This document shows, one piece after another, positions 4,948 to 22,749 of a stretch of 57,716 nucleotides of DNA. Position 1 is the first letter of the stretch, and the number at the start of each line of letters is the position of its first letter. The position numbers were made by a program, and so were the translations under genes. Under the pieces are notes generated by a model. The model ran no database searches and was not told where the DNA came from. It was given only the letters and a program-made list of their open reading frames with translations. Source of the DNA: Neiella litorisoli (lineage in GTDB: Bacteria > Pseudomonadota > Gammaproteobacteria > Enterobacterales > Neiellaceae); assembly GCF_014773395.1 (NCBI RefSeq), contig NZ_JACXAF010000030.1, forward strand, positions 1 through 57,716. The letters are read 5' to 3'.

Positions 4948-6048
4948 ATGAAGCCAACTATGAATTACCGTGTAGCGGTTGCGATCGGGCTTTGCTCTGC
5001 CTTTGCGTTAACTGCCTGTAGCAAACCCGCAGCGCCGGCAAAGCCGCCGGCCTCGATTGAAGTGGCGAAAATATCCGATGATATTTTTGGCACCATGCGT
5101 GATTTTCCCGCGGTGGTGCAAGCCAGTGATCAGAGCGACTTAGCCTTTCGGGTGTCCGGTGAGCTAATTGAGTTGCCAGCAAAAGGTGGTATGCGGGTTG
5201 CCAAGGGCGATCTGTTAGCCAAAGTTGACCCCGCTGATTTCATCCGCGCAGTTGAAGATGCCAAAGCAACCTATGACTTGGCTAAGTTGAATTTTGAACG
5301 CGCCGCTTCTTTGTTGAAAAGCGGCTCTATTTCAGCCTCTGAGCACGATACTTTAAAGGCTGAATATCAAATTGCTCAAGCCGAACTCAATATTGCTAAA
5401 ACTCGATTGGGCTTTACTGAACTCAGAGCGCCCAAAGACGGCATTATTGGTTCGGTACCGGTGGATAATTTCGAAAACGTCCAAATTGGTGAGCCCATTG
5501 TGGTGCTCGATAGCGTTGCAACACTCGATGTAGTGGTTGATGTAGCGGAGCATTTGTTAGCCGTTGCTAGCCCACGTTCGGCGGACAATAAGATAAAGCA
5601 CAAAGTCACCATTGAAGGCATTAATGGTGAATTTTATGCCTCTCGTTATGAAGTTGAATCGGAAAAAGACGAGGTTAGTAAAACCTATAAAGCAACCTTG
5701 CGCATGGAACGGCCTCAGCAAGTCGCCATCCTGCCGGGGATGAGCGCTGTGGTTAGCGTCGACATGAACAAAATATCTCGTGACGCGTTTTCCGGTCTGG
5801 TGCTGCCAAGCTCAGCGGTGCAGTTCGAACCGGCAAAGAGTCTTGACGGCCATAACTCATTTATTTGGAAACTCTCTGACACTGGGGATTCAGTGGTGAA
5901 ACAAGCGGTAGAAGTTCAGCAATTATCTGAATACGGCGTTGAAATAAAATCGGGTATCGCACCAGGTGACGTCATTGTTGTTTATGGCCAGGGACTGTTT
6001 GACGGTGCGCCGGTCAATGTGGTGAAAACCAGGGAGATTAACGGATGA
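4948..6048 (+). CDS. RND efflux periplasmic adaptor lipoprotein (second of two)
   Basis: A 366-residue membrane fusion protein with a lipoprotein signal peptide; the lipobox LTAC is at about residues 21-24, so it should be lipidated and anchored to the inner membrane. It carries the lipoyl halves (LAFRVSGELIELPA and FTELRAPKDGIIG) around a coiled-coil hairpin, then barrel and membrane-proximal domains. It is related to, but clearly diverged from, the preceding adaptor, which is not lipidated. It overlaps the pump start by 4 nt (ATGA), indicating translational coupling. The two adaptors may form a mixed hexamer around the pump, as proposed for TriA/TriB; this is inference by analogy. Confidence 0.92.
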   Translation: MKPTMNYRVAVAIGLCSAFALTACSKPAAPAKPPASIEVAKISDDIFGTMRDFPAVVQASDQSDLAFRVSGELIELPAKGGMRVAKGDLLAKVDPADFIRAVEDAKATYDLAKLNFERAASLLKSGSISASEHDTLKAEYQIAQAELNIAKTRLGFTELRAPKDGIIGSVPVDNFENVQIGEPIVVLDSVATLDVVVDVAEHLLAVASPRSADNKIKHKVTIEGINGEFYASRYEVESEKDEVSKTYKATLRMERPQQVAILPGMSAVVSVDMNKISRDAFSGLVLPSSAVQFEPAKSLDGHNSFIWKLSDTGDSVVKQAVEVQQLSEYGVEIKSGIAPGDVIVVYGQGLFDGAPVNVVKTREING

Positions 6049-9000
6049 GCATTGCTGAGTACTTTGTCAAAAATAAAATTATCAGCTGGTTGGTTACCCT
6101 GATTTTGGGGCTCGGTGGTGCGGTTGCGTTTACCGGTTTGGGCCAGCTGGAAGATCCGGAATACACCATTAAAGATGCTGTCGTCATTACTTCATATCCT
6201 GGCGCTTCGCCGCAGCAGGTTGAAGAAGAGGTCACCTACAAGCTCGAGCTTGCCATTACCCAGTTGTCCTATATCGATGAAATTAAATCGATTTCGACGG
6301 CTGGCTTGTCGCAGATTACGGTCACCATGCAGAATAAGTACGACAAGCATGCGTTACCGCAAATTTGGGATGAATTGCGACGCAAAGTCGGTGATGTAGC
6401 TGCCCAGTTGCCTCCCGGCGCGTCAACCCCTTTGGTTAACGATGACTTCGGTGATGTATTTGGTGTGCTGCTGGCCTTTACGGGCAAAGGGTATTCCTAT
6501 AAAGAGCTGAACGATTACGTTGATTTTGTTAAACGTGAATTAGAGGTGATCCCTGGGGTTGGCAAGATTAACTTGGCTGGGGTGTTATCTGAGCAGGTGT
6601 TTATTGAGATTTCCTATAAGAAATTATCGGCGCTTGGGATATCACCCGATACCATTTATGCCTTGTTGAATCAGCAAAATGCGGTGGCGCCAGCGGGAGC
6701 GTTCCGTCACGATGATGAGTACATTCGAATTTACTCAACCGGTGAATTCATGGATGTCTCTGAGTTAGAGAATCTAATTATTGCCGGTGCTGGTTCCGAT
6801 AAGCTGGTTTACTTGCGCGACGTTGCCGATGTCTATCGCGGCTACCAAGAAGTGCCATCCAACCTCTACAACTTTAACAACCAGCAAGCGATTACCATGG
6901 GTATTTCGTTTGCCTCTGGGGTCAATGTGGTAGATGTCGGTAAGTTGGTGAAAGAGCGGATGGATGAGCTGGAATACACCAAACCGCTGGGTATGGAAGT
7001 GGTTCATATCTACGACCAGCCTGGTTCGGTTGAGGTTTCGGTGCAAGGCTTCATTCTCAACCTAGTGGCAGCTGTTGTTATCGTGGTGGTGGTTCTGCTG
7101 TTCTTTATGGGTGTAAAGAGTGGCTTGCTAATCGGTTTGATTCTGGCGCTGACCTGTATCGGCAGCTTTATCTTCATGGCGCAAATGGGCATTGACCTTC
7201 AACGTATTTCGCTTGGCGCTTTGATTATCGCACTGGGGATGTTGGTCGATAATGCCATTGTGGTGGTTGAGGGGATTTTGATTGGTATGCAGCGCGGTAT
7301 GTCGAAAGTCAAAGCCGCTGCCGCCATTGTTAAGCAAACCATGTGGCCATTGCTTGGTGCGACTGTGATTGCCATCGTTGCTTTCGCTCCGATTGGTTTG
7401 TCAGAAGATTCGACCGGTGAGTTTGCTGGCAGCTTGTTCTGGGTACTGCTGATCTCCTTGTTGATGTCTTGGTTTACTGCGATTTCCATTACGCCATTCT
7501 TTGCTGATTTGTTCTTTAAAGAGCAGAAACACGATCCGGATGCGGAATTGGAAGACCCCTACAAAGGCATTATCTTTGTTGGCTACAAAAAGCTCCTCGA
7601 CACCGCGATGCGGTTTAAATGGGCCACCATTGGCATTTGTATTGCGTTGCTGGTGGTGTCGTTGTATGGCTTTACTAAAGTGCGTCAGGCATTCTTCCCG
7701 CCAGCAACAACGCCAATCTTTCTTGCGGATGTTTGGTTGCCGCAGGGCAGTGATATTCGCTACACCAGCGAAGTTGTCGATGAGATGGAAAAGTGGGTAC
7801 TGCAGCAAGAAGAAGTGAAGCAAGTGACCACAACCATCGGCGCTGGCGCACAACGTTTCATGCTCACTTATGAGCCAGAGAAAACCTATCCGGCTTATGC
7901 CCAGTTGTTGGTGAACGTCAATTCAGCGGAGCAAATGCATCCGATGATGCAGCGTTTGCGCGATACCTTTGCACAAGATTTCCCGCAAGCGCAAATCAAG
8001 CTGCGTAATCTTGAAATTGGACCTTCACCGTCGGGCAAAATTGAAGCGCGATTCTCTGGTCCAGATCCGGATGTATTGCGAGATCTGTCCGAGCAGGCTA
8101 AGCAAATTTTGCGTGACGATCCGGTGGCAACCAATATTCGTGATGATTGGCGTGAACGCTCCAAGTTGATCCGTCCAATTTACGACGAATCGCTAGGACG
8201 TCGTGCCGGTATCAGCCGCGCTGATTTGGATAGTACCTTGGAGATGTCCTATTCGGGCTCAACCGTTGGGCTGTATCGTGATGGTACTGATTTGCTGCCA
8301 ATCGTTGTGCGGTTGCCGGAAGAGGAACGTGCCGATAGCTCATCATACGATGGTTTGCAGGTTTGGAGTCCGGTGCAAAGCCAGTACATTCCGATTAAGC
8401 AGGTGGCGCCAAATTATGATCTGGCATGGGAAGATGCTGTGATCCAGCGCCTTGATCGTAAGCGGACGTTGACTGTGATTGCCGACCACGATGTGTTGGG
8501 TGTTGAAACAGCAGCTCAAGTATTTGAGCGAGTACGCCCACAGATTGAGGCGATTCCTCTTCCGAAAGGCTATTCGCTGGAATGGGGCGGCGAGTACGAG
8601 GCCTCTAATGATGCGTCGGTTGCCGTGTTCGGCTCATTGCCAGGCGGTTTGTTGATCATGTTCCTGATCACGATCTTCCTGTTTAATTCGGTGAAACAGC
8701 CGTTAGTCATTTGGTGTTGTGTGCCAATGGCTGTGGTCGGTATCACCTTTGGTTTGTTGGTGCTCGATGCCGCCTTTGGCTTTATGGCCTTGCTCGGCGC
8801 GCTCAGCCTGATTGGCATGTTGTTGAAAAACGGTATTGTGCTGTTGGATCAGATCAACTTGGAAATTAAAGAGGGTAAAGAGCCGTATCAAGCTGTGTTT
8901 GATTCTGGTGTCAGTCGTGTACGTCCGGTATCAATGGCGGCGATTACCACGATTCTCGGCATGATTCCTCTGCTTGGGGATGCATTCTTTGTCGATATGG

Positions 9001-9116
9001 CCGTGACCATTATGTTTGGTTTAGGTTTTGCCACTGTGTTGACACTCGTTGTGGTGCCAGTCTTGTATGTGGTGTTCCATGGCTTCAAATATCGCTCTCT
9101 TGATAGTATGAAATAG
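6045..9116 (+). CDS. RND family efflux transporter permease
   Basis: A 1023-residue inner-membrane pump of the AcrB/MexB superfamily, normal in length. It shows the expected plan: TM1 near the N-terminus, a large periplasmic porter loop with the GASPQQVEEEVT segment, TM2-6 including the LGMLVDNAIVVVEG motif of TM4 with the proton-relay Asp, a second periplasmic loop, and TM8-12 with GMLLKNGIVLLDQI. It exports small molecules in exchange for protons together with the two adaptors encoded just upstream. No outer-membrane channel gene is present, so a TolC-like protein must come from elsewhere. A good terminator follows at 9163-9194. The substrate cannot be predicted. Confidence 0.96.
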   Translation: MSIAEYFVKNKIISWLVTLILGLGGAVAFTGLGQLEDPEYTIKDAVVITSYPGASPQQVEEEVTYKLELAITQLSYIDEIKSISTAGLSQITVTMQNKYDKHALPQIWDELRRKVGDVAAQLPPGASTPLVNDDFGDVFGVLLAFTGKGYSYKELNDYVDFVKRELEVIPGVGKINLAGVLSEQVFIEISYKKLSALGISPDTIYALLNQQNAVAPAGAFRHDDEYIRIYSTGEFMDVSELENLIIAGAGSDKLVYLRDVADVYRGYQEVPSNLYNFNNQQAITMGISFASGVNVVDVGKLVKERMDELEYTKPLGMEVVHIYDQPGSVEVSVQGFILNLVAAVVIVVVVLLFFMGVKSGLLIGLILALTCIGSFIFMAQMGIDLQRISLGALIIALGMLVDNAIVVVEGILIGMQRGMSKVKAAAAIVKQTMWPLLGATVIAIVAFAPIGLSEDSTGEFAGSLFWVLLISLLMSWFTAISITPFFADLFFKEQKHDPDAELEDPYKGIIFVGYKKLLDTAMRFKWATIGICIALLVVSLYGFTKVRQAFFPPATTPIFLADVWLPQGSDIRYTSEVVDEMEKWVLQQEEVKQVTTTIGAGAQRFMLTYEPEKTYPAYAQLLVNVNSAEQMHPMMQRLRDTFAQDFPQAQIKLRNLEIGPSPSGKIEARFSGPDPDVLRDLSEQAKQILRDDPVATNIRDDWRERSKLIRPIYDESLGRRAGISRADLDSTLEMSYSGSTVGLYRDGTDLLPIVVRLPEEERADSSSYDGLQVWSPVQSQYIPIKQVAPNYDLAWEDAVIQRLDRKRTLTVIADHDVLGVETAAQVFERVRPQIEAIPLPKGYSLEWGGEYEASNDASVAVFGSLPGGLLIMFLITIFLFNSVKQPLVIWCCVPMAVVGITFGLLVLDAAFGFMALLGALSLIGMLLKNGIVLLDQINLEIKEGKEPYQAVFDSGVSRVRPVSMAAITTILGMIPLLGDAFFVDMAVTIMFGLGFATVLTLVVVPVLYVVFHGFKYRSLDSMK

Positions 9117-9194: not shown

Positions 9195-9294
9195 GTTGGG
9201 GCCACAAGGATTGGCATTAGTCGTATACAAGCTTCTGTAAATGGTCTAGTTTTTGTATGGTTTGATCATTATTAGTAAACATGGAGAATGTTTC

Positions 9295-9798
9295 GTGCGT
9301 TGTTTTTTAGCGGCAATTGCCGCAGTTGGCTTGGTAAGTGTTGAAGTAAATGCTGCTGAGCAGCAAGTGCCGGTGGCAGAGTCCGAACAAGCTCGGTTCG
9401 CCGTTGGTGGTGGTATTTGGGAAGCGCTGGATAACATGGACATTTACTATGCCCAGTCCGCTTATGAATTTGCTGAATTTGAGCCATTGTGGGGAATTCG
9501 GCCAACCGTGTTGGCGATGCTGAGCGAAGATGGGGAGTATTATTTCGCCGGTGGCTGGTTAAAGGAATTTGAATTGGCCGAGCGCTGGGATTGGGGCTCT
9601 GGTAACGTGGTTGGTTATCACAGTGACAATGACTTTTTAGGCCATCATTTAGAGTTCTATTCGCGTATTTTTGTCAATTACGGCTCAAAATCAGACGGTT
9701 TCTGGCGTCTCGAATTTGGCCACATTTCAAACGCCAGCATTGGCGATCGTAACCCCGGCACTGAGACGTTGACCTTGACCTATAACTGGCGCTTATAG
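9295..9798 (+). CDS. PagL-type lipid A 3-O-deacylase (acyloxyacyl hydrolase family)
   Basis: A 167-residue outer-membrane beta-barrel protein of the PagL family, which removes the 3-linked acyl chain of lipid A. The C-terminal segment GHISNASIGDRNPGTE carries the family's catalytic His, Ser and Glu in the correct spacing (H-x-S and E twelve residues after the Ser). The mature chain ends in an aromatic-rich strand. The GTG at 9295 is chosen because GGAG lies 8 nt upstream and because it gives a compact signal peptide (RCFLAAIAAVGLVSVEVNAA). A longer reading from TTG at 9253 would put a polar stretch in front of the signal. It follows the RND terminator and is probably separately transcribed. 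Confidence 0.85.
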   Translation: MRCFLAAIAAVGLVSVEVNAAEQQVPVAESEQARFAVGGGIWEALDNMDIYYAQSAYEFAEFEPLWGIRPTVLAMLSEDGEYYFAGGWLKEFELAERWDWGSGNVVGYHSDNDFLGHHLEFYSRIFVNYGSKSDGFWRLEFGHISNASIGDRNPGTETLTLTYNWRL

Positions 9799-12876: not shown

Positions 12877-13629
12877 CTATTGTCTGCCGTTGTTTCGCGC
12901 CACCACAATGGTGACATTGTCATGACCGCCGGCGGCTAATGCTGCCGATAGCAATCGCTCAACGGCAAGCCTTAGCGATGGCGCGGTGAGTAGTAGAGTG
13001 GCCATTTGATTGCGCGATACCATGTCCGATAAACCATCGGAACAGAGCAACAGTAGGTCGCCCGGCTGCCAGCGATGGCTGACCTGTTCGATATGATCCG
13101 GTTGAAATTGGCTAGCGCCAAGCGCTGTCGTCAAGACATGGCTGTATTGACGGCTGGCGGCGTCATTTAATGGTTGCCCTTGCTGGCGCAACTGTTCGGA
13201 TAAGGTGTGATCGGTGGTGAGCTGGGTCAGTTGGGTTTGGTCGTGAGGTAATAGATAAGCCCTGCTGTCGCCGAGCCAGTGCACAGTAAATTGACTGGCT
13301 TGCAGCGCCGCACTGACGACAGTGGCGCCCATGTTCTTCAGTCTGACATTGTGTTGAGCGTGATAACAAATGTGTTGATGAGCGCCGGCAATCGCGTCTG
13401 CGCCACCGTTTTGCTCGTTCAGGGCTCGGTAGATTTGCTGAATGGCAATAGCAGCAGCCATTTCGCCAGCGTTGTTGCCACCAATGCCATCGGCCACCAA
13501 GACAATGCCCTGATCGGCCGCCGCAGCAAAGTTGTCCTCGTTATTGCCTCGGCGCAAGCCTTGATGGCTAACCCCGATGATGTCGAGGTCGCCACCAGTG
13601 CTTTGCCAGTGCACCAGTCCATCGCTCAT
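12877..13629 (-). CDS. PP2C-family Ser/Thr protein phosphatase
   Basis: A 250-residue cytoplasmic PPM/PP2C phosphatase (Stp1/PrpC-like). The metal-coordinating motifs are intact: RxxNED (N30-E31-D32), VADGIGG (D47), GDSRAY (120-125), SDGL (D198) and GGHDNVT (D237). Its start overlaps the GH3 stop by 1 nt (TAATG), making it the last cistron of a five-gene operon whose first gene is a Ser/Thr kinase. The obvious inference is that it reverses phosphorylation by that kinase; the shared substrate may be one of the three enzymes encoded between them. No membrane segment or sensor domain is present. Confidence 0.93.
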   Translation of the reverse strand: MSDGLVHWQSTGGDLDIIGVSHQGLRRGNNEDNFAAAADQGIVLVADGIGGNNAGEMAAAIAIQQIYRALNEQNGGADAIAGAHQHICYHAQHNVRLKNMGATVVSAALQASQFTVHWLGDSRAYLLPHDQTQLTQLTTDHTLSEQLRQQGQPLNDAASRQYSHVLTTALGASQFQPDHIEQVSHRWQPGDLLLLCSDGLSDMVSRNQMATLLLTAPSLRLAVERLLSAALAAGGHDNVTIVVARNNGRQ

Positions 13630-15323
13630 TAATCAAGCTCGATGACTTTAACAAGTTCCGGTTTGATCACTGATGTCGCCGCTTTCATAGGACTGAGCAA
13701 CTCAGTTTTAGCCTGAAACATCCGCTTGCCCTCAGACACCATATCTTTGCGAGCACGCTCATACCAGCCGTCGCGCATGACATGAAGCTGTGGCGGTGCT
13801 AAGCGTTGCGATTCACGCTTACTCTTGTACTCGATATTAATTTGTTGCAGCGCTTCATCAAACGCTTGCAAAAAGCTGGACAATTGCTGGTCTGGATAGT
13901 GGCCAACAGGCTCCAAGCGCAACACATAGCGGCTTTGTTCAGATGCTGCTTCGGCCTTAAAGTGGGCGGCTAGCACGCCGCTTTTTTCACTGGCTTTTTG
14001 AATGCCATCAATCACCTGATTAACACTGAGTTTTTCGCCGGTGATGTTGGTCATGCCGCGGCCTTTGCGGAGAAATTGAATCTTCGGCGCTTGGTTGTAA
14101 AAGCCTTTGACCGTAATCACATCGTTAATGTCATAGCGATAGAGGCCACCTGTGGTGGTGAGGAAGATGTAATATTCGCCACCATCTTCAAGTTCGGTGA
14201 CGGTTTTGTATTGCCAGGCCGTTGGGTCATTGGGGTTTTGTGTGACTTCGTCGGCATCAACAAACTCATAATAATTGACATCAAGCGCCAATGGCCCTGC
14301 CGCACCTTCATCACTTAACGGTACTGAGCAGCGCGCTTCACTTGATAAAAATCCCCAGTCTCGAGTTGCCACCGGCTTATTGCCGTCGGGGTTGAACCAA
14401 GTGTCAAATTTGTCGATGTAGTGACCAACGGTGCCACCTTTCCAACAGCCAATTAGAGCCAGCTCTGGCCAGTAATCCCCCGGTAGCAAATGACCATTGC
14501 GACGCTCATAGCAGGCTTTTAGCTGCTTGGCTCGGGCCGGAGCAGGCTTTAGTTTGGCTTCCAAAGCCTGACGAATATGAGGCTCGATGTTGAACTGATT
14601 GGATAAGGTGCCGTCTTTCACATCGTTGATCAGAATGGTGGCGTATTCGTCTGCTTTTTCGCACATTTTCAAAATAGACGATGGGTTTGCCGTGGCCAAT
14701 AAGCCGACTTTTTCTGCCAGCGCGATTCTCATCAAAGCATAATATTTGGCTTCGTAATCTTCGATCTCGAATACCGGATAAGGCACCGCATAAATTTTCT
14801 GAACGATGCCGGGCATTTGTTTGTAGATATGGCCGGAGGTAGCGCCATAGGGCAGTCCGCACTCGGTCTCACCTTCAATTGCAGGCGACACCAATGACAC
14901 AATTTTTCCGCCATATAAGCCGGGATGGGCGAGCTTGGCGTGATACATCCAGCTGCGCATCATGTCTTTGCTGGCCGTGCGACCACAGCTTGGTGTAAAC
15001 GGAATGAATTTGGCTTTGCCGGTGGTGCCGCTGGTCTGGGCGAACATAATGGGCTGCTCAGCGACCAGCTGGTTTGGTTCGCCGTTACACATGCGGTCGA
15101 TGTATGGCTGAATGTCATTGTAACTGACCAATGGCACGGTTTGGCGGTATTGCTCTGGGCTTTTAATGGCCGCAAAGTCGTATTTTTTGCCGTACTCCGT
15201 ATCTTTGTTGCGTTCTAAAATCGTCATCAGCAAATTGCGCTGAGTTTGTTCCGCATTGAGGGTGGTGTGCTCAAAGCGTTTAGCCGAGCGGCTGGCAATA
15301 AAATGAATCAGTAAACCCAGCAT
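13629..15323 (-). CDS. GH3 family acyl-acid adenylating/amido synthetase
   Basis: A 564-residue member of the GH3 (auxin-responsive GH3) branch of adenylate-forming enzymes. In plants these couple a carboxylic acid to an amino acid through an acyl-AMP; bacterial members are mostly uncharacterised. The ATP/AMP motif TSGTTGKAKFIP is at 97-108, and YRYDINDVI and the GCWKGG segment are typical of the family. The start at 15323 is chosen over an upstream in-frame ATG because GGAGG lies 7 nt before it and the longer form would run into the preceding gene. It sits 2 nt after the enolase-superfamily gene and overlaps the phosphatase by 1 nt. A predicted role is ATP-driven amide formation on an unknown acid, perhaps the product of its operon neighbour. 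Confidence 0.9.
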   Translation of the reverse strand: MLGLLIHFIASRSAKRFEHTTLNAEQTQRNLLMTILERNKDTEYGKKYDFAAIKSPEQYRQTVPLVSYNDIQPYIDRMCNGEPNQLVAEQPIMFAQTSGTTGKAKFIPFTPSCGRTASKDMMRSWMYHAKLAHPGLYGGKIVSLVSPAIEGETECGLPYGATSGHIYKQMPGIVQKIYAVPYPVFEIEDYEAKYYALMRIALAEKVGLLATANPSSILKMCEKADEYATILINDVKDGTLSNQFNIEPHIRQALEAKLKPAPARAKQLKACYERRNGHLLPGDYWPELALIGCWKGGTVGHYIDKFDTWFNPDGNKPVATRDWGFLSSEARCSVPLSDEGAAGPLALDVNYYEFVDADEVTQNPNDPTAWQYKTVTELEDGGEYYIFLTTTGGLYRYDINDVITVKGFYNQAPKIQFLRKGRGMTNITGEKLSVNQVIDGIQKASEKSGVLAAHFKAEAASEQSRYVLRLEPVGHYPDQQLSSFLQAFDEALQQINIEYKSKRESQRLAPPQLHVMRDGWYERARKDMVSEGKRMFQAKTELLSPMKAATSVIKPELVKVIELD

Positions 15324-15325
15324 GA

Positions 15326-16471
15326 TTAATCCTCCAGGTTGAGTTGCCAATGTTGTTGCTGGCATTGGCTCAGCTGCTGTGGCGATATGTTGATGCCCAA
15401 ACCATGGCCGCTGAGCGGCTCGACCAGAGCTTGCGGTCCGATCATCAGTGGCGGTAGAAAAATATCATGGGCAAGGAGTAGGGTGCCGAAACAACCTTCG
15501 CGCCACCTGAGTGTTGGGGTAATGGTTGCCAGCGCTAATCCGGCGGCAGATAAACAACTGGTTTCGCCAACCTGAGCACCAAGTTGGCAGCGAATACCAT
15601 GTTCGGCGGCCATTTGTGCAATACGATGGCTGTTCCCTAAGCCACCACATTTTGAGATGCGAATGTTAAATAGGTCGCAAGCGTGACGGTCAATCAGGGT
15701 TTCGGCATCGGCCAGCGAACAAATGGACTCATCAACCATCACCGGCGTAATCGCTGCTTTAGTGAGCGCCGCTAAGCCATCAAGATCGTCGCTGGCCAGC
15801 GGTTGTTCGATGCTGTTTAAACCAAATCGCTTTAATTCAGAGAGTTGCGCTGCGGCCTCATCGGCATTTTGCCAAGCGCAGTTGGCGTCGCCACGTAAGT
15901 CATGATCTGGGCCCAGCACCTCGCGCACGGTTTGTAGGAGCTGGATATTTAAATCCAATTCTTGATGCAGCTTAATTTTGCTACAAGGCACCGCCAGATG
16001 TTTAATTTGTTGCGCCATGGCAGCCGCTTTTTGTGGCTCACCCACGGCAATAACGCCGCTGTACTGTTGTTTATCGCTCGATGGCGTGGCGATTAAACAG
16101 GCAGCCTGACACTCGCGCTGTTTACCGATTAAATCGAGTAAGGCTAATTCGAGGGCACAAAAAGCCGCATGCTTGTTCCGTGGCAGCTTGATGGTTTGCA
16201 TCATTAGCCAATCTTGCAAATGCTCGCTGCTGGTGTCTTGTAGTTCTTTGAGTTGGGGTAACAGCTCATCGGTTAAGGTTTGCCAAGCTTGTTCAAAAGT
16301 CTCGCCGGTGACGTAGTGACGGGGGCAGCTTTCACCGAAGCCGGTTAAGCCATCTGCAGTGGTGATTTTCAACAAAATATTGCGCGCGATTTTGCGTGAT
16401 GCCAGCGCGTGTTCAACTTCCACCAGCATGGGAATTTCGATGGCGTAAAGCTCCGCTGATTGAAACTTCAT
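15326..16471 (-). CDS. Enolase-superfamily enzyme, muconate-lactonizing (MLE) subgroup
   Basis: A 381-residue MLE/mandelate-racemase-like protein: N-terminal capping domain followed by a TIM-like barrel. The MLE-subgroup residues are complete: K165-x-K167 on strand two, metal ligands D195, E222 and D247, and the opposing base K274 (ISKCGG). Annotators may call it dipeptide epimerase, but the C-terminal DxD that binds the dipeptide amino group in L-Ala-D/L-Glu epimerases is not seen. Instead the segment reads CFGTLLLAHDI, closer to muconate cycloisomerases (FGPLLL). It could be a cycloisomerase, an OSBS/NSAR-like enzyme or an epimerase. Its ATG overlaps the preceding hydrolase stop by 1 nt, with a strong AAGGAGG inside that gene. 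Confidence 0.85.
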   Translation of the reverse strand: MKFQSAELYAIEIPMLVEVEHALASRKIARNILLKITTADGLTGFGESCPRHYVTGETFEQAWQTLTDELLPQLKELQDTSSEHLQDWLMMQTIKLPRNKHAAFCALELALLDLIGKQRECQAACLIATPSSDKQQYSGVIAVGEPQKAAAMAQQIKHLAVPCSKIKLHQELDLNIQLLQTVREVLGPDHDLRGDANCAWQNADEAAAQLSELKRFGLNSIEQPLASDDLDGLAALTKAAITPVMVDESICSLADAETLIDRHACDLFNIRISKCGGLGNSHRIAQMAAEHGIRCQLGAQVGETSCLSAAGLALATITPTLRWREGCFGTLLLAHDIFLPPLMIGPQALVEPLSGHGLGINISPQQLSQCQQQHWQLNLED

Positions 16472-17418
16472 TATGGTGCCTCCTTGTGACTAAGCCATTG
16501 ACTGATATCGGTTGCCAGTCGATTTGGCAGTTCCAGTTGTATGGCATGGACCTGCTTGGGGTAATGTTGCACTGATGTGGCTTGCTGGCCCCTGAACAAA
16601 AGTTTGGTGACTTTGTCGTTATCAATAATTTCATCACGGCCAGCGAGAAATAGCAGGGTGGGGCGTTGCAACTGGTTGATGTTGCTTGCAATCCACTTAT
16701 CCATTCGGCGGGTCTGCCAGAGAAATTCGGCGGTGACCATTGGGTTTCGCAGGGGATCTGCTTCGATAAACTCTACCCATTGCGGTTTGTCGCTAAACAT
16801 TGCCGGCGTGACGGGGACAGGGTAGGTGCTTTGTTGGCAAAACAAATGACAGAACGCGATGGAGAGCTTGTCGATACCGTTGTAATCAACTGCGGCCACC
16901 AGCCCAGGGGTGACCAAAGCTAAACCGCTAATTTTGTCTGGGTGGGCCAAGCCATAGGCGGTGGCAAGTTTGCCGCCCCAAGATAATCCGATCAGGTAAA
17001 TGTGGCTATATTGGGGTCTGATTTGGCGGATAAAGTCATCTAAATCATCAAGCCAATCATGCCAACTATCGATGTGCCCTGCTGTGATACCGCGTTGCGA
17101 GCGGTTTACTCCGCTGCCGCGGCGATCCAACATGTAGACATCGTGGCCTTGCGCCGCTAATCGATTGGCGGTTAACTCAAACCAGCCTGAATGACTGGCA
17201 ATGCCGTGCAAGTACACCAAAGCTGTGTCTGGATGCTCCGAGGCCATGCGGGCAAAGTAACCCAACTTGGAACCATCACGGGTGACGTATTCCAGCTCTG
17301 AACGTTGTTCAATGTGCTGATAAATCTCTTCTTTAAGACTGTCATCATTGGCCCGAGCAAACTGACTGGCGGCAATACAAGCAGTCATTAGAAGGGCTAG
17401 GATCTGCTTGTAGTTCAT
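16471..17418 (-). CDS. Exported alpha/beta hydrolase (serine lipase/esterase-like)
   Basis: A 315-residue alpha/beta hydrolase of the Hydrolase_4/monoacylglycerol-lipase type. A signal peptide (residues 1-~23, ending FARA) predicts export to the periplasm. The oxyanion segment YLHGIASHSGWF is at 69-80. The nucleophile elbow GLSWGG has S146, and D262 (GRDEIID) and H291 (VHAIQL) complete the triad. The start at 17418 is preferred because it overlaps the kinase stop by 4 nt (ATGA) and has GAGG just upstream; the longer in-frame reading lacks a signal peptide. Probable substrates are esters, lactones or amides. It is the only exported enzyme in this operon. Confidence 0.88.
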   Translation of the reverse strand: MNYKQILALLMTACIAASQFARANDDSLKEEIYQHIEQRSELEYVTRDGSKLGYFARMASEHPDTALVYLHGIASHSGWFELTANRLAAQGHDVYMLDRRGSGVNRSQRGITAGHIDSWHDWLDDLDDFIRQIRPQYSHIYLIGLSWGGKLATAYGLAHPDKISGLALVTPGLVAAVDYNGIDKLSIAFCHLFCQQSTYPVPVTPAMFSDKPQWVEFIEADPLRNPMVTAEFLWQTRRMDKWIASNINQLQRPTLLFLAGRDEIIDNDKVTKLLFRGQQATSVQHYPKQVHAIQLELPNRLATDISQWLSHKEAP

Positions 17419-19508
17419 CGTGTTAATTCCTCGGTTACGTCGACGGATTGTTGTTGTGGTAACAGCAAGTTGGCGTCTTGCTGCCACAACGAAGCTGCCG
17501 TTTGCGCTGACCATGGTGTCGATTCAGATAGTTGGTAAAGGGTTTGCAGTAATTGCTGGCAGTCCTGTGGCCGCTGCTTCGGGTCGCGGCTGATGCAGGC
17601 CATGATGAGCGCTTCCAATGCCGGTGAGATGGCGCCATCGCAGTGAGCAGATAGCTTCACCGGCTCTTCGCTAAGCATTTTGGCCACCATTTCCATCGGC
17701 GTGTCGGCGGCAAATGGTGAGTTGGCGGTAAGCAGGTTGTACGCCACCACCCCAATGGAGTAAATATCGACGGCAACGCTGGCGGCGAGCGGATCGCTCA
17801 AGCGCTCTGGCGCGATATAAGCGGCGGTGCCGGCAATTGACTGGGTTTGGGTTAGCGCCATGTCTGGTTCACTGGCAATGTGCTTCACCAAGCCGAAATC
17901 CAGCACTTTGACAAAATCGGCCTGGCCGCCCAATTGGCACAGCATAATATTGGCTGGTTTGATATCGCGATGGATCAGGCCTTTGCGGTGGGCTTCATCG
18001 AGGCTTTGGCACAGCTGCTGGATAATGTGAATCACCCGAGCCTCGGGCTGCGGTCCGCGTTGTTCAATGAGATCGGCTAATGAAAAGCCGTTCAGGAGCT
18101 CCATGACATAAAAAAAGCGGCCGTTTTCAGTGATACCGAAATCATAAATCTCAATGGTATTCGGGTGCCGTAACATGGCGGTTTGCTGGACTTCCAACTC
18201 GAATCGTTGGATGTTCTCTGGGCTTGATTGTTCACGGCGCAGTAGCTTCACTGCAGTCGGTCGTTGAAGCAGCGCATGTTTGGCCTGATAGACACTGCCC
18301 ATGCCGCCCTCACCAATTTTGTGCTGCAAGCGGTAGTTACCGAGTTTCGATAAATCATCGATTTGCTGGGCCATGTGCGACATTCGATACCGCAGCACCG
18401 ATAACCCAGCAATCGCCAGACAGACCAGCGCCAGTAAGCCGTATTGACTGTAAACCAGTGGTGACATCAGGTTAAAGGCATCATCGCGCTCCACCTCGAT
18501 AATCAAGCCAATCTCAAGCGCAGGCTCCCATGCCCAAGCGCCCATGACTTCAATACCTCGAAAATCCTCATAGCCATCGACATTAACTCCCGATTGCTGC
18601 TGACTAACTGCTTGTACCGATTTGATTAATTGCTCTGAGTTGGGACGTGTTAGGCGCAAGTTAAAGAGCAAATCGTCATTGTCTGGATCGAGGCGCTGTT
18701 GCTGTGTTTTGGGCACGGCCAGCGCCATGGGTGAGATCAGCACGCCATCGCGGTTAACGATATAGCTGTGAGTAAAGTCGTCTTTATCAAAGATCTCTGT
18801 CAGGTAGGTGAGCTCTGTTTCCGGATCTAATACCGAGATAGCGACATGTTGCTGACCGTTATGTTCCAGTGCGATGCCTACCAGAATGACAGGCACCGCC
18901 AGATCGATTTTGGGGAATAACTGTTTGGCATTTTCCAGTGCCGACATATGGACGCCGGCTTCCAGCGTTTGGTGGACGAAATAGGTCATCCTTGGTGTTA
19001 ACTGGCTTTCTTTGGCTGCTCGGTGGGAGCTGAGAACGACTTTGCCTGAGTTGTCGACGATGGCATAGCCAATGGCGCTGACGCTTTCGGTGTAACGCTT
19101 GAGCAGTTGGTGAACTGCTTCCAGATCGGCTTCACGCTGACTATCGAGGTAGCGGTTAAACAGCGTCGGTAGCGCTAACTCGTCGGCGAGAAACTCAACA
19201 TGGGTTAGTTCGGCTTGATACCAGCGTTGGATAATGTTTTGGTGGGTATCAATTTGCTGAGTTAAACGATGTTCGTAGCTTTCTTCAACGCCTTCAATAA
19301 TGTGGCTGGAAATCACAAAAGCGAGGACAAACAGCAGCAGGGCGGTTGCCAAAACCACCAAGGTTAGATTTTCTCTACGGGTGCGTTTTTTGCGTTTGGG
19401 GCTTAAGGTCAGACGGGTTTGGCCGCTGTCAGTGGTCAAAGTAGCAACTCCATGGTCATGATTACAGTCAACCTTGCTGCCGTCATGGCGATGCCAAGCA
19501 GTATTCAT
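17415..19508 (-). CDS. Transmembrane Ser/Thr protein kinase with periplasmic sensor domain
   Basis: A 697-residue receptor-like Hanks-type kinase. TM1 at about 48-69 and TM2 at about 354-373 flank a ~285-residue periplasmic domain resembling a double Cache sensor. The kinase domain (about 392-660) is intact: glycine loop GEGGMG (399-404), ATP lysine K421, HRDIKPAN (513-520) with catalytic D515, DFG (537-539) and APE (566-568). The N-terminal sensor/C-terminal kinase order is the reverse of PknB-type kinases, which sense with an extracellular C-terminus. It is the first gene of a five-gene operon ending in a PP2C phosphatase. It probably couples an extracytoplasmic small-molecule signal to phosphorylation of an operon enzyme; that is inference. 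Confidence 0.93.
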   Translation of the reverse strand: MNTAWHRHDGSKVDCNHDHGVATLTTDSGQTRLTLSPKRKKRTRRENLTLVVLATALLLFVLAFVISSHIIEGVEESYEHRLTQQIDTHQNIIQRWYQAELTHVEFLADELALPTLFNRYLDSQREADLEAVHQLLKRYTESVSAIGYAIVDNSGKVVLSSHRAAKESQLTPRMTYFVHQTLEAGVHMSALENAKQLFPKIDLAVPVILVGIALEHNGQQHVAISVLDPETELTYLTEIFDKDDFTHSYIVNRDGVLISPMALAVPKTQQQRLDPDNDDLLFNLRLTRPNSEQLIKSVQAVSQQQSGVNVDGYEDFRGIEVMGAWAWEPALEIGLIIEVERDDAFNLMSPLVYSQYGLLALVCLAIAGLSVLRYRMSHMAQQIDDLSKLGNYRLQHKIGEGGMGSVYQAKHALLQRPTAVKLLRREQSSPENIQRFELEVQQTAMLRHPNTIEIYDFGITENGRFFYVMELLNGFSLADLIEQRGPQPEARVIHIIQQLCQSLDEAHRKGLIHRDIKPANIMLCQLGGQADFVKVLDFGLVKHIASEPDMALTQTQSIAGTAAYIAPERLSDPLAASVAVDIYSIGVVAYNLLTANSPFAADTPMEMVAKMLSEEPVKLSAHCDGAISPALEALIMACISRDPKQRPQDCQQLLQTLYQLSESTPWSAQTAASLWQQDANLLLPQQQSVDVTEELTR

Positions 19509-19701: not shown

Positions 19702-22700
19702 CTAATTTGCCTGACGGCGGAAACTGATGCGGAAAAAGATACTGTACAGTACTGGCACAGCAATAAGGGTGAGGATAGTCGCGAACGCCAGCCCCCCCAT
19801 AATGGTGACGGCCATGTCGGCGAAAAAGGCATCAAAGAGCAGCGGGGCCATCCCTAAAATGGTCGTAATTGCCGCCAGCGCGACGGGCCGCAAACGGCTT
19901 AAACTAGCTTCGACTAAGGCTTGTCGTTGGGGCTTTCCTTCTGCAATTTGCAGGTCAATTTCTTCAACCAAGACAATGGCATTTTTAATTAACATGCCAA
20001 ACAGGCTGAGGAAGCCAAGGAGCGACATAAAGCCAAAGGGCATATCCGTTGCGAGCAAACCGCTGACCACGCCTACGGTTGCCATCGGCACCGTTAACCA
20101 AATGATCAAGGGTTGTTTGACCCGACCAAAAAGCAGCACGGTGACGAGGATCATCACCAAAAAACTCATTGGCAGGCCGGCACCGAGGGCTCGTTGGGCG
20201 TCGCCGGCTGATTCATATTCGCCGCCCCAGTCGATGTCATAGCCATCAGGCCGCTCAATTGCTTCGACTTGCTGACGGATCCGACTTAGTGCGGCAGCTG
20301 CAGTGTCATCAAAGCCTGGCTCGGCAAAAACGCTAATGGTGCGAACGCGATCGCGGCGCTGAATCAGGGTATCTTCGCTGGCGAGTTCTACCTCTCGCAT
20401 GACCTGACTCATGGGAATATAACGGCGCTGGTGGGCACTCCATACCAGTGCGTTGCGGAGGCTTTCAACGTCGGCAACGGCGGCGTTTGGCACTTTTGCA
20501 ACAATGGGGTAGTCGTAGTCGCCATCGCGCAGTTTACCTAATTCCAAACCACTACTGACATATTGCACCGCATCGGCGAAATCGGCTCGGGTGACGCCAG
20601 CAACACCGGCATTGTACTCATCAAAGTCGGGCACCAGTGTGAGCGCTTTTTCGCGCCAGTCATGACGAATATCGCGGATCTGGCCGTCGGCCCGCATGAT
20701 GCTTTCAGCTTGCGCGGCTAGTTTGCGAAGTTCGCTAATGTCAGGGCCAGAAAAGCGCGCTTCGAGCTTGGCGGTGGTGCTGGGGCCGAAGACCATGCGT
20801 TTCAGGTAAAAATCTGAATCCGGATCCATGGCATTAAGCTTGGGCGTAATGGTGGCAATGAAATCATCGATGGCTTCGGCATCTTTCATTTCCACCAGAA
20901 ACAGATTGTAGCTTTCGTTGCGCGCCTCTGGGCCATAGGTCAGGGTAAATCGGGCGGTGCCTTGGCCGATACTTGAGGTGACCGCGGCGACATCATCATA
21001 TTGCAGTAGCAGTTTTTCGATCGCTTTGGCCTGCTGCTCTGTGGTGCGAATATCGCGAGCCTGTGGTCCCCAGTGATGGATGTAGAACATTGGCGTATTG
21101 GACGGCGGGAAGAAACCTTGCTTGACGTTGCTGAAATTCGCCATGGCGACCAAAGTAATGGCAATCAACGCAGCTATAGTCAGCCAGCGGAATTTCAGCG
21201 CCGAACGCAATGCCGATAAGTAGCCTCGATGAAACAACGAGTTGGCAGTCTGCTCGGCGCTGTTGTTCGATGTTTTATAGAAGTAAGAGCCGAATAGTGG
21301 TGTCACTGTCACGGCCAATACCCAGCTGAGCATCAGCGAAATTAAGATCACCGCGAATAATGAAAACAGAAATTCACCGGTGGCATCATCAGACAAACCA
21401 ATACCAGAAAATGCGGCAATGCCAATGACGGTGGCTCCGAGCAATGGCCACTGGGTTCGCTTGACGATAAAACTGGCGGCATCAATGGCACGTTTCCCCT
21501 GTTGCATTCGCAGCATCATCCCTTCGGCGACCACAATAGCGTTGTCGACTAGCATGCCCATGGCAATGACCATGGCGCCAAGTGAGATCCGCTGTAACTG
21601 TAAGTCGAACAGCCACATCAGCAAAATCGTACCCATCACGGTGAGCAGCAATACTGCGCCAATCACGACACCCGAGCGCCAGCCCATGAACAAACAAAGC
21701 GTGAGGGTCACGACTAAAACCGACAGTTCTAAGTTGAGGATAAAGCCTTTGACCGACTCATCAACAATACTGGCTTGGTCATAGATTGGCGCTAAGGTTA
21801 TGCCCGCAGGCAGTTGCCGCAGCATGCGCTCAACTTCTACTTGTACCGCTTGGCCGACTTCAACAATGTTGACATCGTCGTTGGCGGAAATGGCGAGAGT
21901 AATCGCCGGATCGCCTTGGTAGCGCACCAGATTAGGTTGGACGTCAACCGGCTCAATGCGAAGCTCAGCAAAATCGCGGACTCGAATGGTCGCTTTCGAG
22001 CCGGGCACCGCCAAAATTAAATCGCCCAGCTCTTGCAGCCGATTGTCGGCGGCTTCGATCGGAATGCGCACGCGATTGCCATCAACCAACAAGCGGGCAT
22101 CGTGCAGCGGTCGTAAGTTGTATTGCAACAGTTGCGCAATATCGGGAAATGACAAACCCAGACCAGCAATATGATTGAGATCCATTTCAACCACGATTTG
22201 CTCACGCAGCACGCCGCTGACATCAACCTTCGCAACACCAGGAACGGTGAGTAGGTTGCGGCGAATAATACGAGAAAACTCACGCAGTTGATAAGGACTA
22301 AAATCGGGAGCGGACAGCGCGTAGTAGAGGCCAAACACGTCGCCAAAATCATCATAGACGGTCGGCGCTCTGGCTCCGGCAGGCAAACTCTTACTGGCAT
22401 CAGCCAAACGTTTGCGCAACTCATCCCAGATTTGCGGCAACTGTGAGCCGTCAAAATGGCGCTTCATCTCTACCGTGATCTCCGATACGCCAGGCTTGGA
22501 GGTGGAAGTGAGCTCATACAACTGGGGCATTTGCTGAATCGCAATTTCCAGTGGCTCGGTGATCTCATCTTCCACTTGAAGGGCGTCAGCGCCGGGATAC
22601 TGGGTGATCACTTTGGCTTGTTTAATGGTAAATGCCGGATCTTCAAGGCGGCCAATATTGCTCAGGCCGATGATACCGCCAATCAGGCAAATAATAATAA

Positions 22701-22749
22701 GTAGCCAGGTATTGACGGGGGTATTGATTGAGTAGCGGGCTAAATCCAC
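19702..22749 (-). CDS. RND family efflux transporter permease (second pump)
   Basis: A 1015-residue AcrB-superfamily pump. It has the standard 12-TM plan, with LGAMVIAMGMLVDNAIVVAEG in TM4 (proton-relay Asp present), two large periplasmic porter loops and the C-terminal GMLIKNAIVLVEEIDLQ motif. It is homologous to, but clearly distinct from, the pump at 6045-9116. It is the second gene of an adaptor-pump pair, 6 nt after the adaptor, and is divergent from a TetR-type regulator that probably controls it. No outer-membrane channel is encoded nearby. A 9-bp hairpin without a U-run (19634-19664) lies downstream. The substrate is unknown. Confidence 0.95.
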   Translation of the reverse strand: MDLARYSINTPVNTWLLIIICLIGGIIGLSNIGRLEDPAFTIKQAKVITQYPGADALQVEDEITEPLEIAIQQMPQLYELTSTSKPGVSEITVEMKRHFDGSQLPQIWDELRKRLADASKSLPAGARAPTVYDDFGDVFGLYYALSAPDFSPYQLREFSRIIRRNLLTVPGVAKVDVSGVLREQIVVEMDLNHIAGLGLSFPDIAQLLQYNLRPLHDARLLVDGNRVRIPIEAADNRLQELGDLILAVPGSKATIRVRDFAELRIEPVDVQPNLVRYQGDPAITLAISANDDVNIVEVGQAVQVEVERMLRQLPAGITLAPIYDQASIVDESVKGFILNLELSVLVVTLTLCLFMGWRSGVVIGAVLLLTVMGTILLMWLFDLQLQRISLGAMVIAMGMLVDNAIVVAEGMMLRMQQGKRAIDAASFIVKRTQWPLLGATVIGIAAFSGIGLSDDATGEFLFSLFAVILISLMLSWVLAVTVTPLFGSYFYKTSNNSAEQTANSLFHRGYLSALRSALKFRWLTIAALIAITLVAMANFSNVKQGFFPPSNTPMFYIHHWGPQARDIRTTEQQAKAIEKLLLQYDDVAAVTSSIGQGTARFTLTYGPEARNESYNLFLVEMKDAEAIDDFIATITPKLNAMDPDSDFYLKRMVFGPSTTAKLEARFSGPDISELRKLAAQAESIMRADGQIRDIRHDWREKALTLVPDFDEYNAGVAGVTRADFADAVQYVSSGLELGKLRDGDYDYPIVAKVPNAAVADVESLRNALVWSAHQRRYIPMSQVMREVELASEDTLIQRRDRVRTISVFAEPGFDDTAAAALSRIRQQVEAIERPDGYDIDWGGEYESAGDAQRALGAGLPMSFLVMILVTVLLFGRVKQPLIIWLTVPMATVGVVSGLLATDMPFGFMSLLGFLSLFGMLIKNAIVLVEEIDLQIAEGKPQRQALVEASLSRLRPVALAAITTILGMAPLLFDAFFADMAVTIMGGLAFATILTLIAVPVLYSIFFRISFRRQAN

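Follow-up and report, generated by a model that had tools for sequence, protein, structure and literature searches.

A GH3-MLE gene pair shared by distant bacteria and its kinase-headed operon in Neiella: a candidate pathway to N-acyl amino acid lipids

We analysed a 57,716-nucleotide stretch of the Neiella litorisoli genome (contig NZ_JACXAF010000030.1, hereafter the window), in which five genes at 12877-19508 encode a membrane Ser/Thr kinase, an alpha/beta hydrolase, a muconate-lactonising-type enzyme of the enolase superfamily (MLE), a GH3-type amide synthetase and a PP2C phosphatase. Judged by sequence and gene order, the conserved unit is the pair formed by the GH3 and MLE genes, which is co-inherited across distant bacteria of several phyla. 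As far as our searches of the open-licence literature go, this module is undescribed, and the kinase-controlled five-gene operon is its Neiella version. We propose, as an evenly balanced proposition, that the operon serves to build and modify an N-acyl amino acid, i.e. a small aminolipid or a lipid-like signal, with the GH3 enzyme acting before the MLE and with the kinase and phosphatase in control in Neiella. The five genes are, in operon order:

17415..19508, minus strand: membrane Ser/Thr protein kinase, operon gene 1 (Pkinase 182.6 bits; motifs G-x-G-x-x-G-x-V, AVK, HRD, DFG and APE)
16471..17418, minus strand: alpha/beta hydrolase (Hydrolase_4, 151.6 bits), monoacylglycerol-lipase-like by its PDB relatives
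15326..16471, minus strand: MLE-subgroup enzyme of the enolase superfamily, proposed N-acyl amino acid racemase (MR_MLE_C 148.6 bits)
13629..15323, minus strand: GH3-type ATP-dependent acyl acid-amido synthetase, proposed N-acyl amino acid synthetase (GH3, GH3_M and GH3_C)
12877..13629, minus strand: PP2C-type Ser/Thr phosphatase (PP2C_2 52.3 bits; motifs NEDN, DGIGG, SDGL and DNVT)

The original prediction, made from the DNA letters, had placed five genes of these families here on one strand, joined by overlaps of 4, 1 and 1 nt and one 2-nt gap. All five open reading frames (ORFs) lie on the minus strand with junctions of -4, -1, +2 and -1 nt, and each family identity was borne out by Pfam matches. 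The starts used for the hydrolase and GH3 genes are internal ATGs, the longest ORFs of both beginning further upstream. The gene overlaps suggest that the five genes are co-translated.

The GH3-MLE pair was followed by two kinds of search. A scan of a collection of 84,980 species for two peptide patterns, in which only proteins with either pattern are visible, returned eight GH3 relatives, of which six come from bacteria other than Neiella. The GH3 gene is directly followed by an MLE gene of the window type in four of the six, from Bacteriovoracaceae, Xanthobacteraceae and, twice, Poribacteria, with products sharing 31-34% identity with the window MLE; the remaining two, from Omnitrophota, are located at the ends of their contigs. 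Profiles were then built for the GH3 (A3) and the MLE (A4). The A4 profile was searched in 398 genomes of the phylum, in 240 of the class of L032, and in the phyla of L027 (14 genomes), L030 (48) and L029 (114), and the A3 profile in 369 genomes of the class. These searches scored a few first-look candidates per genome, so that weak MLEs may be missed, and the genomes covered lie outside Bacteroidota and Planctomycetota, for which PMC12493201 describes bacterial GH3 proteins as frequent or as having been studied. All listed A4 matches at E 1e-40 were examined for their neighbours; the low-scoring MLE places from the search that covers the genome of L028 stand outside this comparison.

The A4 scores split into two groups, with 11 non-seed loci at 312-399 bits (L063, L064 and L085-L093, the split gene of L091 scoring 153 plus 130 bits) and 20 loci at 142-185 bits (L094-L113). 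A GH3 gene was adjacent to the MLE in 11/11 of the high-scoring loci and in 0/20 of the low-scoring ones. Two genomes of the high-scoring set (G615 and G987) were also met through the GH3 search, and from the GH3 side an MLE was present in both high-scoring genomes of the class. Over the 17 loci with both genes, the GH3 and MLE distance matrices correlated with r 0.90, and with r 0.76 after removal of four close loci; in each case 0/5000 permutations reached the observed value. Chance adjacency of the two genes is rejected on the 11/11 versus 0/20 contrast together with this correlation. A GH3 tree of 35 rows places 20 of 21 rows labelled as MLE-linked in a single cluster (support 92/81), together with the unlabelled L019; the label was also given to L027 and L028, neither of which shows an MLE. 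Hosts of the pair are Gammaproteobacteria, a genome of Xanthobacteraceae along with its class, and records under the names Bacteriovoracaceae, Poribacteria and Omnitrophota. At L091:7486-8642, the MLE gene is broken into two neighbouring ORFs, with a single-ORF GH3 beside it.

Several observations weigh against so tight a link, or against a fixed set of partners. Five of the 20 low-scoring loci (L095, L097, L102, L103 and L104) have their MLE less than 400 nt from a contig end, so that one flank is unseen. Eight of the nine low-scoring GH3 loci examined are without an MLE, the places in G618, G490, G329 and G460 being left out of this count; the exception, L070, combines a low GH3 score with a hydrolase and a contig-cut MLE fragment, and it is also the remaining labelled row of the GH3 tree, where its placement is unsure. 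The genome of L028 gave no MLE at E 1e-20. At L027, where the GH3 gene lies close to the end of its contig, no MLE can be seen, and the same genome has the pair on another contig (L089). In the MLE tree, L097 falls on a long branch among rows linked to GH3; its MLE is without the K-x-K lysines, and its 8.7-kb contig carries no GH3 gene. Neither of the partner types described below, hydrolase or hydroxylase, was seen in the stretches examined at L029, L087, L088 and L091 (L087 is cut by a contig end), and a CocE/S15-type gene, found beside several pairs, also stands beside the low-scoring control MLE of L099 and is therefore not specific.

The window GH3 protein has all three domains of its family over the Pfam cut-offs of 23.6 bits (GH3 267, GH3_M and GH3_C 69 and 62.1 bits), matches plant GH3 structures with E down to 2.5e-36, and has at residues 97-100 a TSGT motif that is invariant in 20/20 sequences. 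This agrees with its assignment as an ATP-dependent amide synthetase. It has all three Pfam domains in common with the plant enzymes JAR1, GH3.5 and GH3.12 and differs from them in being bacterial and operonic. The closest described bacterial case is OlsH, a GH3 enzyme that uses ATP to join free fatty acid and ornithine into N-acyl ornithine, and whose operon also holds OlsI, an O-acyltransferase of the alpha/beta hydrolase fold (PMC12493201). The OlsH-OlsI-OlsG operon of Singulisphaera acidiphila resembles the Neiella operon in joining a GH3 protein to an alpha/beta-hydrolase-fold protein; compared with it, the Neiella one adds MLE, kinase and phosphatase and has no methyltransferase among its five genes. 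The Neiella GH3 is only distantly OlsH-like (81.6 bits with the OlsH NCBIfam model, against an equivalog cut-off of 620), and its hydrolase is not OlsI by model. Plain ornithine lipid synthesis is unlikely, since the OlsH cut-off is not reached and the genome encodes OlsF (904.6 bits, cut-off 620). With OlsF present, the GH3 product is probably another N-acyl amino acid. PMC12493201 suggests another N-acyl amino acid for the GH3 proteins of Cytophaga-Flavobacterium-Bacteroides group bacteria that also have OlsB or OlsF.

The window MLE exhibits the two catalytic lysines, the three metal ligands and the enolase fold of MLE-subgroup racemases, and the catalytic residues are invariant in 19/19 sequences. 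By sequence, its two-lysine active site of the racemase/cycloisomerase kind is complete. Among solved proteins, N-succinyl-Arg/Lys racemase and dipeptide epimerases come closest to it in sequence and structure; the structure nearest to its predicted model is the N-succinyl-Arg/Lys racemase, with cycloisomerases close behind. Fold, metal ligands and both lysines are common to the MLE, the N-succinyl-Arg/Lys racemase of Bacillus cereus (2p88) and the N-acylamino acid racemases. In contrast to 2p88, to which the window MLE is 27% identical, the MLE family is paired with GH3 and has invariant H21, R51 and E325 and an inserted G302, which are rare or absent in the 20 control MLEs. The NCBIfam model of the N-acetyl-D-Glu racemase DgcA (NF042940) gave 94.6 bits (cut-off 400). 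Identity as an L-Ala-D/L-Glu dipeptide epimerase was rejected, NF041118 and NF011708 giving 72.6 and 67.4 bits against cut-offs of 500 and 343. In the diverged MLE relative at L097:172-1272, both K-x-K lysines are replaced by Arg.

GH3 enzymes yield N-acyl amino acids, the class of compound that the nearest solved relatives of the MLE racemise, so the MLE most likely acts after the GH3. The order hydrolase, MLE, GH3 put forward in the original prediction is for this reason probably wrong, while its acyl-amide product, consistent with a GH3-type amide synthetase, can be narrowed by inference to an N-acyl amino acid or aminolipid in view of the distant OlsH likeness of the GH3 and the OlsE likeness of the partner hydroxylases. 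The reactions that we assign to the GH3, the MLE and the hydrolase are read from homology. The exported lipase-like hydrolase would free a fatty acid from an envelope lipid, or move an acyl group; the GH3 would adenylate the free acid with ATP and couple it to an amino acid; and the MLE would act on this N-acyl amino acid by racemising its alpha carbon, so that the product is D- or DL-configured. In a sister flavour of the module, an OlsE-like hydroxylase, sometimes fused to the GH3, would hydroxylate the product. In Neiella, the sensor kinase at the operon head and the PP2C at its tail would provide a lineage-specific control. That these elements make up a widespread undescribed pathway, in which a GH3 amide synthetase, an enolase-superfamily racemase and OlsE-like or lipase-like tailoring lead to D- or racemic N-acyl amino acid lipids, run by kinase and phosphatase in Neiella, is a tentative proposal to which we give somewhat less than an even chance.

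The kinase has the Pkinase domain (residues 392-657) and the catalytic motifs of Hanks-type Ser/Thr kinases. Its sensor-like region (about 66-360), between two hydrophobic stretches read by eye, matches dCache_1 weakly (21.9 bits, cut-off 45), and the predicted model of the sensor, with a predicted local distance difference test score (pLDDT) of 37.8, is too low for use. The phosphatase has the domain and metal-site motifs of PP2C and scores 177 bits with an Stp1-type model (cut-off 230). Close relatives of the window are in Neiella marina (GH3 94% identity) and Neiella holothuriorum (GH3 90%), the genus being placed in Gammaproteobacteria, Alteromonadales, Echinimonadaceae. Both of these species, the only other Neiella found (L016 and L017), have all five genes, with junctions of -4; -1 or -4; +2; and -1 or -4 nt, as well as the neighbouring LysR, GGDEF and RND genes; in the window, the LysR gene lies 54 nt downstream of the PP2C gene and the GGDEF gene follows after another 86 nt. 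In a second genus of the family (L018, genome G020), kinase, hydrolase, MLE and GH3 stand in the same order, with 37, 43, 51 and 70% identity to the window, between different flanks (by eye, fur-like on the upstream side and glnS-like on the downstream side) and with no phosphatase match in the 19.5-kb stretch. No GH3 was seen in three other sampled genomes of the family, two of which are incomplete (88 and 60%); in the order of the window, any GH3 match occurs in 13/295 genomes and 5/99 genera. The five-gene arrangement is not due to chance.

Across the 21 GH3-MLE loci, a set that includes L070 with its MLE fragment, the kinase was found in four (window, L016, L017 and L018) and the phosphatase in the three Neiella ones (window, L016 and L017), in stretches of 5.9-57.7 kb. 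The set of five is co-inherited in Neiella, but the claim of a five-gene pathway overstates the unit: all five genes stand together in the three Neiella loci and four in L018, and what is conserved beyond these is the GH3-MLE pair. Among the papers listed by our searches of the open-licence literature we found none describing this pair, in line with the claim that no pathway with this gene set had been described.

With the kinase not seen in 17/21 and the phosphatase in 18/21 of the module stretches, it is a real possibility, though one we would not favour, that the two regulate something else and are joined to the operon by transcription alone. Against this, the kinase keeps the operon-head position in 4/4 family genomes with the module, and its 4-nt overlap in two genera, despite relocation of the operon in one of them. 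A search with the sensor region in 290 genomes of the order gave strong near-full-length matches only in the four module-holding genomes (own, G064, G044 and G020), the remaining matches being at or below 62 bits. Four of these were examined, one GGDEF protein and three PAS proteins, and three of them (the GGDEF protein and two PAS proteins) have a sub-cut-off dCache_1 match, the PAS ones being cut by the locus end. The kinase therefore seems bound to the GH3-MLE operon within the family while standing outside the wider module. At the head of the L063 operon (genome G615), a different signalling gene, PAS-GGDEF-EAL, overlaps the hydroxylase gene by 4 nt, which suggests that other lineages may use other signals. 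Control by kinase and phosphatase is, on these gene arrangements, likely a lineage-specific addition to the proposed aminolipid pathway.

Two kinds of partner accompany the pair. A Hydrolase_4-type gene is present in 8/21 loci (window, L016, L017, L018, L070, L089, L090 and L093) and an FA_hydroxylase in 9/21, as a separate gene in six (L030, L031, L032, L063, L085 and L086) and fused to the GH3 in three (L064, L065 and L092). The partner hydroxylases of L030, L032, L063 and L065 align over their full length with the OlsE model NF052566 (4/4, 179-206 bits, cut-off 475), and no other NCBIfam hydroxylase model matched these four at E 0.001. OlsE hydroxylates the ornithine head of ornithine lipid (PMC3972451). 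The partner hydroxylases differ from it in scoring under half of the curated cut-off, in being fused to GH3 in 3/21 loci, and in their absence from the window operon.

The FA_hydroxylase-GH3 fusions are at L064:10519-13101, L065:8829-11396 (OlsE-like, the one tested), L092:6198-8666 and L019:3920-6064, the last in the order of the window itself and cut by a contig end. Upstream of the L064 and L065 fusion genes, in L064 beyond an S15 gene, lies a gene for a membrane-like protein of about 150 amino acids without a Pfam match (L064:14904-15374 and L065:11407-11853, 42% mutual identity). An S15-type hydrolase gene is found beside L030, L031 and L064, and in divergent orientation beside L032; the one tested, of L031, is CocE/NonD in NCBIfam.

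The hydrolase might instead be an OlsI-like O-acyltransferase, and the operon would then make a full acyloxyacyl aminolipid. The shared operon of OlsI and OlsH speaks for it, and so does the nucleophile column of the hydrolase alignment: a pattern HG-x-x-SH-x-x-W and DRRG-[SA]-G is common to all eight module hydrolases, and the nucleophile, Ser in the window, is Cys in L090 (9002-9898) and L093 (6915-7865). A Cys nucleophile is a feature of some acyltransferases, so that acyl transfer instead of hydrolysis is possible. Nevertheless, the window hydrolase gave 22.3 bits with the OlsI model (equivalog cut-off 385), its best solved relatives are monoacylglycerol lipases, and it is probably exported, as judged from a signal peptide read by eye. 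We consider this alternative unlikely, though well short of negligible.

A lower likelihood attaches to an MLE that acts before the GH3, by isomerising, cyclising or dehydrating a carboxylic acid to which the GH3 then adds an amine. The Neiella gene order (hydrolase, MLE, GH3) would fit such a sequence, as would the top NCBIfam scores of the MLE, 134.8 bits for muconate/chloromuconate cycloisomerase (TIGR02534, cut-off 334.95) and 123.4 bits for o-succinylbenzoate synthase, both below cut-off. On the other side stand the racemase and epimerase relatives of the MLE, near as the cycloisomerases are, the match between GH3 products and the substrate class of such racemases, the position of GH3 ahead of MLE in 9/9 hydroxylase-type loci, and the resemblance of the partner hydroxylase to the lipid enzyme OlsE. 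Muconate-type aromatic degradation was rejected, the MLE being far under the TIGR02534 cut-off, and no gene of an aromatic-degradation pathway was found among the 18 window ORFs scanned with Pfam.

Plant GH3 enzymes conjugate and silence auxin, and the operon could likewise be degradative or inactivating, with a signal of ester or lactone type opened by the hydrolase and the acid then conjugated and silenced by the GH3. This would accord with the plant hormone-conjugating enzymes among the solved GH3 relatives and with the weak scores of the L089 and L093 hydrolases (20.0 and 22.8 bits) under a model of N-acyl-homoserine lactonase whose cut-off is 400, but it is improbable, as it leaves the co-inherited MLE without a clear role and the OlsE-like partners indicate a membrane lipid.

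The synthetic GH3-then-MLE reading, if true, would amount to a dedicated route to D-amino acid lipids, and we know of no earlier one, though no search aimed at such lipids was made. In Neiella, it would place a membrane-lipid or lipid-signal pathway under the control of a eukaryote-like kinase. In 2025, a bacterial GH3 enzyme was shown to have a lipid role, in a paper which states that the functions of the many other bacterial GH3 proteins are still to be worked out (PMC12493201); in the open-licence literature we found no other paper that ties bacterial GH3 to a lipid pathway. With a racemase-type partner so closely linked to it, one GH3 clade now has a reaction that can be tested.

Additionally, other genes of possible interest were seen in the window and its genome. 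Two RND-type pump genes (named by eye) lie either side of the operon region, at 6045-9116 and 19702-22749, the former product sharing 45% identity over 1017 amino acids with the N. marina counterpart of the latter. Another envelope-lipid enzyme, a PagL-like lipid A 3-O-deacylase (37.4 bits), is encoded at 9253-9798, about 3 kb from the operon. On another contig of the same genome (C11), L125:1099-1977 encodes a PEP-CTERM/exosortase-associated acyltransferase (245.6 bits).

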